Source: Acidobacteriota bacterium (GTDB taxonomy: Bacteria; Acidobacteriota; Blastocatellia; UBA7656). From it: a stretch of 51,390 nucleotides of DNA. The first letter of the stretch is position 1. The number at the start of each line of letters is the position of its first letter. Made by a program: the position numbers and the translations under genes. The notes beneath the pieces were generated by a model that did no database searches, had not been told where the DNA came from, and saw only the letters and a program-made list of their open reading frames with translations. This document shows, piece by piece, positions 13,618-22,556 of this stretch. The DNA lies in the NCBI GenBank assembly GCA_016201275.1, contig JACQDB010000047.1, forward strand, positions 1 through 51,390, read 5' to 3'.

Positions 13618-14094
13618 ACGGCGTGTTACAAACTGGATGACGGCAAAGAATGGTCTAGGGCTTGGCGTTTCCTTGGCGTCTTGGCGACTTGGCGCGACAT
13701 CGGTTTTTGATTGCACGAAACTGCGGTCTCGCGCCAAGTCGCCAAGATTCGTAAAGATTTTTTTTACCTCAACGCAGCAATTGTGAATGATGACCAAGAT
13801 CAGCACCGAGAAATCTTTATCCGCAAAATCTTACTCGCAGCGCGGAATAAATCACGGCGGTGCCGAATTGCAGAAGAAGAGAACGGCTCGCCTAAAAGAT
13901 CGTCAATCGGTATGATAAACAGGCGACGGTGAGCGTACTGGAGGCACCAGTACAGTAGTTTTCACTATCCTTGCGGATAACCCGAAAGATGGCGAAGCGG
14001 TCGGCAATCACCACGCAAACCGCTTTGTCATCGGTTGGGAACGAGTCATTCGCCAGTCATTTTAACATTCGGAGTTGAGACAGGAGATGCCTAT
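13618..14094. other. Intergenic region with CTTGGCG heptads
   Basis: No believable gene is seen. Near 13660-13695 CTTGGCG words repeat with about 7-nt phasing. CTTGGCGACTTGGCGC at 13680-13695 has its exact complement at 13731-13746, giving a 16-bp inverted repeat just after the polymerase gene that could act as a terminator (followed by TTCGTAAAGATTTTTTTT). The rest is unremarkable up to the AGGAG site of the glutathione peroxidase gene. Confidence 0.7.
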
Positions 14095-14691
14095 ATGAAA
14101 AAAAGTTTCGCGTTGATTGCATTCGTAATCGTAGCCATAGCCGCTTTGTCTGTGGTCAAGGCCATCGCTTTGAAAGCGGAGACACCTGCGCCCGAAAGCG
14201 CCTACACCTCGGTTTACGATTTCACGATGAACGATATTGATGGCAGGCCCGTCAAGCTGGACGCTTACAAAGGCAAGGTCGTATTGCTGGTCAACGTCGC
14301 CTCGAAGTGCGGCTACACGCCGCAGTACGAAGGCTTGCAAGCGACTTATATGAAATACAAAGATCGCGGCTTGGTCATATTGGGTTTTCCGGCAAATAAT
14401 TTCATGGGGCAGGAACCCGGCAGCAACGAAGAGATCAAACAGTTCTGCTCGTTGAAATACAACGTCACCTTCCCGCTGTTTGCCAAAATTTCCGTCAAGG
14501 GCGAAGACAAACATCCGCTCTATAAATTCCTCACCGAGAAAGCGACAGACCCGGAATTCGGCGGCGAGATCAGTTGGAACTTCAATAAGTTTTTAGTTGA
14601 CCGCAACGGCAAAATCATCGCCCGTTTCAGCACCAGCGATAAACCCGAAAGCGACAAAGTTACCCAAGCCATCGAACAGGCGCTGAAATAA
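14095..14691 (+). CDS. Glutathione peroxidase-family thiol peroxidase, exported
   Basis: This 198-aa protein has an N-terminal hydrophobic signal or anchor (about 4-26), so it probably works in the periplasm reducing hydroperoxides. The peroxidatic residue is Cys72 (NVASKCGYTPQYEGLQ), encoded TGC, so this one is not a selenoprotein. The other tetrad residues are Gln106 (NNFMGQEPG), Trp161 and Asn162 (SWNFNKFLV). The resolving Cys candidate is Cys118 (KQFCSLKYNV). Most such bacterial enzymes use thioredoxin rather than glutathione. The ATG at 14095 has AGGAG 8 nt upstream and begins the signal sequence, so it is preferred over an ATG-like start 60 bp earlier. A strong terminator follows. Confidence 0.93.
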   Translation: MKKSFALIAFVIVAIAALSVVKAIALKAETPAPESAYTSVYDFTMNDIDGRPVKLDAYKGKVVLLVNVASKCGYTPQYEGLQATYMKYKDRGLVILGFPANNFMGQEPGSNEEIKQFCSLKYNVTFPLFAKISVKGEDKHPLYKFLTEKATDPEFGGEISWNFNKFLVDRNGKIIARFSTSDKPESDKVTQAIEQALK

Positions 14692-21257: not shown

Positions 21258-21610
21258 CTCCTATCGCGCACGGCTTGTTTGGTGAGGCTGATGACGGTAT
21301 CCCTGTCAGGCGGCAATCTTATGCTTTTCGTCGTCGCCTCGCAAGCGAAAATAGATTAGGCGTTGCCCGTTTTCGCCAATCAAGTTTGCAAGCATCGAAT
21401 CAAGCCGCTTCAAGGTTGCACGAAGCCGCAAGGCAAACGTCAAAAAGCTAGACCATCGCCGTGCGCCTTGTACTGGCTTGAGCTACCGAAAAACTTTTGC
21501 TCAGGTACTTACTTGTGGAGAAATCGCAAAACCGAAATTTGCAAACTGGCATTCTCTCACACGCGCATGGCAAAATGATGGTTCCTGAAATTCTATACGG
21601 AGGTCGAACA
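21258..21610. other. Intergenic leader region
   Basis: This 353-bp region lies between divergent genes (IPT/TIG on minus, rhodanese on plus). It should contain both promoters. I see no repeat, RNA or gene in it; GGAGG just before 21611 is the ribosome-binding site of the rhodanese gene. Confidence 0.5.
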
Positions 21611-22063
21611 TTGAATAGTAAAAAAGCTCTCTGGTTGCTGGTGCTGCTGGCGCTTTGCGTGCCTGCCCTTGCGGCACAAAAAAACCCTGGCAACACATCG
21701 TCGAAGGCTGTCGCGCCGAAAAAAGAGATCACGCCCGAAGAGGTCGAGCGCGTCTCGGTTGATGAATTGATTTTATTGATGGCCAAGAAAAAGCCCATCG
21801 TCATTATTGATGTGCGCGGCAAAGGCGGCTACAGCGAAAAAATCAAGGGCGCGGTGCAGATTCCTTTGGATGAAATCGAAGCGCGTATGAAAGAGATTCC
21901 CCGCGACAAAGAGATCATCACCTATTGTGCCTGACCGTCCGAACACACAAGCGCCGGTGCGGCGGTTAAACTTCTCGAACACGGATACAAAAAAGTGCGC
22001 GCCTTAAAAGGCGGCTGGAATGCCTGGAAAGAAGCGGCTGGAGCGACGGAACAAGCGCAGTAG
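21611..22063 (+). CDS. Exported rhodanese-like protein with in-frame TGA (candidate selenoprotein)
   Basis: This is a rhodanese-fold sulfurtransferase-like protein with a signal peptide (KKALWLLVLLALCVPALAA). A TTG start at 21611 has GGAGG 8 nt upstream. The domain runs IIDVRGKGGYSEKIKGA (from 65), then EIITYCA ending at catalytic Cys106, Ala107. The next codon is TGA (21932-21934). Reading on gives PSEHTSAGAAVKLLEHGYKK and VRALKGGWNAWKEA, the expected rhodanese C-terminus, to TAG at 22061-22063 (150 aa). Relatives normally read YCACP here, so TGA replaces a Cys codon, giving Cys-Ala-Sec. A SECIS-like hairpin follows at correct distance. Alternatives are a nonsense mutation or a base error. 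No sel genes occur in this window. Confidence 0.75.
21932..21967 (+). promoter_or_regulatory. Candidate bacterial SECIS element
   Basis: It starts at the in-frame TGA. The hairpin AAGCGCC / GGCGGTT (21949-21955 with 21961-21967, one G-G mismatch, four inner CG pairs) exposes a GGUGC loop at 21956-21960, beginning 22 nt after the UGA. Bacterial SECIS elements need a small apical loop with G at its start, about 16-37 nt after the UGA; the E. coli fdhF loop is GGUCU. An outer pairing UGACCG / CGGUUA is an alternative fold that uses the UGA itself. Confidence 0.55.
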
Positions 22064-22196: not shown

Positions 22197-22556
22197 ATGA
22201 AAATCATCAATCGGCAAAAGGCTGCGGTCATCAACACTCTGCACGGCTCGGAAATTCGCCCACTCGTTGATCGCACCACTTCGACCATCACGCAATGCAG
22301 TCTGGCGGAAGAGACCTTGCCGCCGGGGTGCGCTGTCACGCCGCATCGTCATCAGGCTATCGAAGAGATTTATTACATCATCGAAGGCCAAGGCGTGATG
22401 ACGGTTGGCAATGAACAACAAGAGGTACGCGCCGGTGATGCTATCTATGTGCCGCGCCTGCATCGCCACACTCTCGAAAATACCGGCAGCGCGCCGCTCA
22501 AATTGTTATTGGTTTGTGGCCCCGCCTTCTTTTATGAAGACGAAGTGAAAGGGTGA
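22197..22556 (+). CDS. Single-domain cupin protein
   Basis: This 119-aa cytoplasmic protein shows cupin motif 1, PHRHQAIEEIYYIIEGQG (metal ligands His51, His53, Glu57 region), and motif 2, GDAIYVPRLHRHTLENTG, about 20 residues later. Size and pattern fit the small cupin_2 proteins that bind a divalent metal, often as mannose-6-phosphate-isomerase-like or dioxygenase-like enzymes; the substrate cannot be told. No clear ribosome-binding site precedes the ATG. The gene lies 133 bp after the rhodanese and may be independent. Confidence 0.85.
   Translation: MKIINRQKAAVINTLHGSEIRPLVDRTTSTITQCSLAEETLPPGCAVTPHRHQAIEEIYYIIEGQGVMTVGNEQQEVRAGDAIYVPRLHRHTLENTGSAPLKLLLVCGPAFFYEDEVKG

Follow-up and report, generated by a model that had tools for sequence, protein, structure and literature searches.

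A predicted selenoprotein with a Cys-x-Sec active site: a rhodanese of an Acidobacteriota bacterium and its relatives

We propose that a gene in the 51,390 nucleotides of DNA analysed here (contig JACQDB010000047.1 of an Acidobacteriota bacterium, called the window below) encodes a single-domain, probably exported rhodanese in which an in-frame UGA is read as selenocysteine (Sec). That the product is a selenoprotein with the rhodanese fold we predict with high confidence from comparison of sequences. An earlier note on this DNA had arrived at the same central reading, and this reading is now supported by the Sec machinery of the genome, by an alignment column that holds TGA or a Cys codon, and by a conserved hairpin downstream. 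The kind of protein is already known, in that rhodaneses with a CxU motif are treated as predicted selenoproteins in reviews; what is added is an Acidobacteriota branch of this predicted family.

The features of the gene are collected in Table 1. The earlier note was right about the frame, which begins with TTG, meets one TGA and then stays open for 42 codons up to the TAG at 22061-22063, with the segments PSEHTSAG and VRALKGGWNAW present in its translation. If TGA is written as U, the active site reads ITYCAUPSEHTSAG, that is, a YCA-U-P motif. A standard gene call would stop at the UGA and so lose the active-site half of the protein. The open stretch after the TGA is unremarkable when taken alone: 27 of the 114 TGA-ended frames of 80 or more codons in the window are followed by 42 or more open codons. 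Judged by eye, the N-terminus suggests that the protein is probably exported.

Table 1. Coordinates in the window of the Sec-rhodanese gene, its parts and its neighbour
Feature	Position	Strand	Remarks
Sec-rhodanese gene	21611..22063	+	From TTG to TAG; encodes 150 residues if UGA is decoded
Likely ribosome binding site GGAGG	21599..21603	+	7 nt 5' of the TTG at 21611; read from the sequence
Probable signal peptide	21611..21673	+	KK, hydrophobic stretch, ALAA; judged by eye from the translation
Rhodanese domain	21758..22036	+	PF00581 match spanning the TGA
TGT, Cys106, catalytic-loop Cys of the rhodanese fold	21926..21928	+	Invariant in the 19-row alignment A2
TGA, predicted Sec108	21932..21934	+	TGA or Cys codon in relatives; Sec machinery in the genome
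Predicted bacterial SECIS hairpin, loop GGUGC at 21956-21960	21949..21967	+	Within published bSECIS limits; core conserved in TGA relatives
Cupin gene (context, outside the system)	22197..22556	+	Adjoins the rhodanese gene in three genomes of the family

The Pfam Rhodanese model (PF00581) matches residues 50-142, across the TGA, at 66.2 bits against a cut-off of 22.2, and it is the sole Pfam family found in the protein at E 0.01. AlphaFold2, run on alignment A2 for residues 38-150, returns a rhodanese fold with a mean pLDDT of 94.7, and rhodanese-domain chains top the list of PDB structures that resemble this model. At E 1e-6 a sequence search of solved structures gave 14 distinct sequences, which include rhodanese-like proteins and also flavoenzymes that contain a rhodanese (NADH oxidase, CoA-disulfide reductase and related ones). 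Unlike the open frame or a lone hairpin, a rhodanese homology that runs across the TGA and is conserved in relatives is not a matter of chance. Cys106 is invariant in the 19 rows of A2; that the Sec column of this alignment does not vary either is uninformative, since all of its rows were picked for TGA.

What would such a protein do? We take Cys106 to be the catalytic Cys from what is generally known of rhodaneses. The loop Cys is kept and Sec stands two residues further on, and hence the simplest reading is a persulfide on Cys106 that is resolved by Sec108. In this scheme Cys106 would take up sulfane sulfur as a persulfide, as ordinary rhodaneses do; Sec108 would then attack the Cys106 persulfide, leaving a Cys-Sec selenylsulfide, which a periplasmic thiol reductant would re-open. 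From fold and motif we are thus inclined, tentatively, towards a persulfide or disulfide reductase or transferase acting outside the cytoplasm rather than a classical cyanide rhodanese. It is also conceivable, if rather unlikely, that the protein is a real selenoprotein with another role, in peroxide or metalloid detoxification or in selenium delivery, and that Sec108 is peroxidatic and does not resolve a persulfide. Redox roles are expected for most predicted selenoproteins, as a passage of PMC9312934 has it. The Sec domain is, less expectedly, also part of larger proteins with a VTT or a Na+/H+ exchanger domain, which leaves the choice of substrate wide. The rhodanese-loop Cys, invariant beside Sec in A2, nevertheless points to sulfane sulfur chemistry and so to the persulfide scheme. 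A broader picture may be drawn, though we would sooner doubt it than believe it. Here CxU rhodaneses would belong to the main and most diverse selenoprotein groups in Acidobacteriota and in several other phyla of soil and sediment. They would act as a redox module for persulfides and selenylsulfides, placed outside the cytoplasm or linked to the membrane, which has been joined to membrane proteins of the VTT/DedA and Na+/H+ exchanger types; in one Acidobacteriota branch the window protein would represent the free form in the periplasm, and its activity would be new for any rhodanese. In any case the window gene is a compact target for studying the function of a Cys-x-Sec rhodanese.

Insertion of Sec requires a machinery, and the search for selA, selB, selC and selD that the earlier note had proposed found the complete set in the genome of the window (6.84 Mb in 162 contigs, 98.7% complete). 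selA is present at E 2.2e-141 and selB at 364 bits against a cut-off of 242. The tRNA-Sec, which within the family was sought in the window's genome alone, scores 66 bits with the Rfam model, whose gathering score is 47, and ARAGORN also calls a tRNA-SeC. The latter call matters because the Rfam model also matches Ser tRNAs and control genomes: it matches all 14 control genomes, 5 of them over its cut-off, and those lower-scoring matches that were checked proved to be Ser tRNAs. The selD gene itself carries one in-frame TGA. In each of the seven genomes of the family that we examined, the window's own included, selB is over its cut-off, and so is a selD with TGA (L053-L059), which suggests that SelD is likely a selenoprotein itself in this family. 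SelB and tRNA-Sec would decode the UGA of the rhodanese gene under the direction of the hairpin, the loop of which lies 22 nt downstream.

The NF041203 profile was searched against 396 genomes of the phylum and 14 control genomes. It has matches at E 0.001 in 356 of the 396, and below its cut-off it also matches 10 of the 14 controls; most matches are hence other rhodaneses. DNA was taken for all 53 listed TGA rows without a locus and for the best-scoring 27 of about 67 listed non-TGA rows without one. The A2 profile applied to loci L014-L040 and L065-L254 gave 229 rows, 13 of them with a gap at the column. The other 216 hold TGA (160), TGC (21), TGT (18) or another codon (17), and these last rows are mostly ordinary rhodaneses with a different loop. 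After removal of the pattern-selected loci, of the rows with another codon, of a single row that has no first Cys and of duplicates at the DNA level, there remain 113 distinct copies not chosen by any DNA pattern, of which 75 have TGA, 21 TGC and 17 TGT. In relatives of the CxU type the Sec column thus holds TGA (75) or Cys (38), which bears out what the earlier note had expected of the homologues.

Closer to the window, five of the seven genomes of the family have TGA at the CxU column (G000, which is that of the window, G001, G006, G002 and G003). In G004 and G005, both of which have selB, we found distant rhodaneses alone (best E 5.1e-5 and 1.4e-4). The TGA-bearing relatives in two other genera of the family are 61% and 59% identical to the window protein, and the same TGA lies at syntenic loci in these two genera (G001 and G006). 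G001 has in common with the window the downstream cupin, the CBS gene and the next gene, while G006 has in common the large upstream gene and the cupin. A single sequencing error becomes untenable as an explanation, because the same TGA occurs in syntenic genes of separate genera.

The hairpin calls for more caution. The earlier note had described four inner pairs and a GGUGC loop in a hairpin starting 22 nt after the UGA; the four core pairs and the loop are indeed there, but it is the loop and not the hairpin that begins at that distance. The predicted hairpin spans approximately 21949-21967, and its core pairs join 21952-21955 with 21961-21964. For bacterial SECIS elements a passage of PMC13188914 gives a loop of 3-9 nt with G in the first two positions, a stem of 4-16 bp, a distance of 16-37 nt from the UGA and an energy of -7.5 kcal/mol or lower. 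The window hairpin falls within these limits (spacing 22, loop GUG, 7 pairs in the automatic count, -8.7 kcal/mol). Compared with shuffled sequences, the window hairpin alone is not significant (z from -0.11 to -0.42 in three foldings), and we accordingly do not count the fold of this one sequence as evidence by itself. Synonymous recodings of the window gene tell much the same: of 2000 such sequences, 1234 satisfy a loose bSECIS rule, and the four-pair core survives in 305.

The comparison of TGA copies with Cys copies gives a different picture. Of the 75 TGA copies, 74 can form the three inner pairs and 66 the four-pair core, and all 75 have the loop G; the corresponding numbers for the 38 Cys copies are 9, 2 and 9. 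The automatic bSECIS folding rule is satisfied by 62 of the 75 TGA copies (13 fail it) and by 11 of the 38 Cys copies, or by 56 and 10 once the energy limit is applied. From the TGA alignment RNAalifold derives a four-pair hairpin, to which covariation contributes little (0.35 of 4.98); from the Cys alignment it derives none.

Codon choice in the TGA copies points the same way. At the Ala of the stem, 73 of 74 TGA copies use GCC, a codon taken by 103 of 273 Ala residues elsewhere downstream. For the residue (Ala, Val or Leu) whose codon has its end in the stem, the third base is G in 73 of 73, compared with 232 of 646 elsewhere. The following Ala is encoded by GCG or GCA in 57 of 59 copies, whereas 130 of the 273 Ala codons elsewhere are of this kind. 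In copies with Cys these three positions are free of bias: the figures are 7 of 18 (elsewhere 46 of 116), 17 of 30 (133 of 307) and 14 of 25 (55 of 116). The first two bases of the loop Arg codon have no bias in either group (48 of 52 against 127 of 146 with TGA, 6 of 6 against 70 of 78 with Cys). The third bases of a Ser and an Ala codon, which pair with each other in the stem, covary: the 52 TGA copies with AGY and GCN comprise 42 with AGC/GCG, 9 with AGT/GCA and a single AGT/GCG (Fisher p 2.7e-9, a value that ignores relatedness), and the combinations are mixed in the 17 Cys copies of this type. Over the full sets, these two bases can join as the outer pair (21-33) in 67 of the 75 sequences with TGA; 21 of the 38 with Cys have the pair as well. 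Among 80 copies selected by a pattern that left both bases free, the counts are 54 AGC/GCG, 18 AGT/GCA, 5 AGT/GCG and 3 other, and the 36 distinct copies beyond those listed in the pattern scan give 25, 8, 2 and 1, respectively. Judging from these aligned copies, the predicted SECIS-like hairpin is conserved, with covariation, in the TGA relatives.

Given these data, it is very improbable that we are dealing with a dead rhodanese, that is, a pseudogene or a sequencing error in which a Cys codon (TGC or TGT) was mutated or misread to TGA. TGA is one base away from both Cys codons, Cys relatives do exist, and the length of the frame after the TGA is within chance, so that the gene of the window by itself would sit well with such an accident. 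But an accident would hardly recur at syntenic loci in three genera or in 75 distinct copies that were not chosen by DNA pattern, nor would it be accompanied by downstream synonymous constraint and covariation and by a full Sec machinery; this explanation is largely refuted. Decoding of TGA as Trp or some other standard amino acid, through an altered code or general suppression, would likewise keep the frame open, but we reject it as scarcely credible, since 4 of the 13 window genes checked end in TGA, 9 of the 13 have in-frame TGG, and TGG occurs at the column in 0 of the 216 aligned rows of relatives.

How does the gene relate to families already described? Its best match is NF041203 (rhodanese_LYCAU, 'rhodanese-related (seleno)protein', an equivalog), whose active site is C-x-U or C-x-C and with which it has in common the C-x-U motif (YCAU in the window), the size and, by eye, the hydrophobic N-terminus. 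Unlike members of that family it scores 103.8 bits, under the cut-off of 115, and its nearest relatives score 100.2 (G001) and 92.4 bits (G006). The TGA copies of Desulfopila, Desulfofustis and a Nitrospiraceae MAG, by comparison, reach 168.6, 172.3 and 166.6 bits, and on the tree they form a separate well-supported clade, whereas the window copy groups with other Acidobacteriota copies. Being below the cut-off, the window gene is best placed in the broader CxU Sec-rhodanese kind, as a related branch and not as the NF041203 equivalog. A table in PMC13188914 lists 'rhodanese form 3, NF041203, CxU' (TKB26178.1) as a predicted selenoprotein, citing Zhang and Gladyshev 2005, and 'COG0607 form 2, CxU' is listed likewise in PMC9312934; domain and Sec motif of both entries are the same as in the window protein. 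The term Acidobacteri has no occurrence in the main text of either article. Other predicted Sec-rhodaneses in the PMC13188914 table are forms 1, 2 and 4 (UxxS, UxxG) and form 5, TsoB (UxxxxU), which have a rhodanese domain with Sec as in the window but motifs other than CxU. The TsoB model gives the window protein 23.4 bits against a cut-off of 805. GlpE and PspE have the fold in common with it, and the GlpE structure 1gmx matches the predicted model; their own models give 38.6 and 30.2 bits, under cut-offs of 102. Both proteins have one active-site Cys and are not known to carry CxC or CxU.

The NF041203 cut-off is passed in 1 of the 396 phylum genomes, and at least 60 hold a TGA copy among the matches listed, so annotation pipelines may truncate most of these copies. 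Co-occurrence with selB is strong: of the 104 genomes among the matches listed, 60 have a TGA row and 44 have non-TGA rows alone, and selB (E 1e-70 or better) is found in 58 of the former and 11 of the latter (Fisher 2.4e-15, again ignoring relatedness). The non-TGA rows were partly checked for Cys, and such genomes may hold a TGA copy outside the matches listed. In two TGA genomes, G060 and G247, selB was not found at E 1e-70; selA, sought in these two and in the window genome, is present in both, and with assemblies of 370 and 950 contigs, respectively, their selB may be broken or have been missed. A selB match exists in 254 of the 396 genomes, which means that many selB genomes are without a listed TGA rhodanese.

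A DNA pattern of motif plus stem matched at least 117 stretches in genome records. The titles of the 80 listed matches, a few of them less precise, name Acidobacteria, Deltaproteobacteria, Desulfo- groups, Chloroflexi (including Anaerolineae and Thermomicrobiales) and Rokubacteria, and further Nitrospiraceae, Myxococcota, SAR324, Pseudomonadales and Nevskia. In viral contigs 14 stretches matched a pattern and none was confirmed as a relative; 100 plasmid records had a match, all below 60% identity and none covering 80% of the query.

The tree of 190 rows and 109 columns is rooted at the midpoint; many of its forks are unresolved, and its bootstrap values had not settled. It requires 15 changes between Sec and Cys, at least 11 of which are forced by well-supported branches (14-15 in bootstraps, with a shuffled mean of 35). 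The window copy groups with G001 and G006 with support of 100/98. Sec and Cys alternate among relatives, for instance with Cys in G202 beside Sec in G002, and one clade consists of 14 Cys rows, all from genomes of family f15 that are without a selB match. Such pairs, scattered over the tree, lend themselves to studies of why some lineages retain selenium and others lose it.

As to the fusions, more than 260 open codons precede the TGA in 32 of the 160 TGA rows, and many of these frames are cut by the ends of short loci. In one copy (L018, G003:C275) the CxU Sec-rhodanese forms the C-terminal domain of a membrane protein of the VTT/DedA type, with Pfam matches to VTT at 53.7 bits and Rhodanese at 46.6; this is the Pfam-confirmed case, and by eye the same arrangement is seen in L087, L091, L078 and L182. 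Another (L073, G030:C21) lies at the C-terminus of a Na+/H+ exchanger; here too Pfam confirms this one copy (136 and 37.8 bits), and L080 and L184 have the arrangement by eye. A literature search of limited extent with the term DedA found no VTT or exchanger fusions of a Sec-rhodanese, and the words DedA and antiporter are absent from the main text of PMC13188914 and PMC12013277. A tandem pair of Sec-rhodanese genes, each with TGA and the hairpin motif, lies at G162:C19:110909-111670 (L084, L146). Finally, some animal glutathione peroxidases have Sec at a position where the glutathione-peroxidase-like protein encoded at 14035-14691 of the window has Cys (SKCGYTPQY, by eye), and this in a Sec-capable genome.
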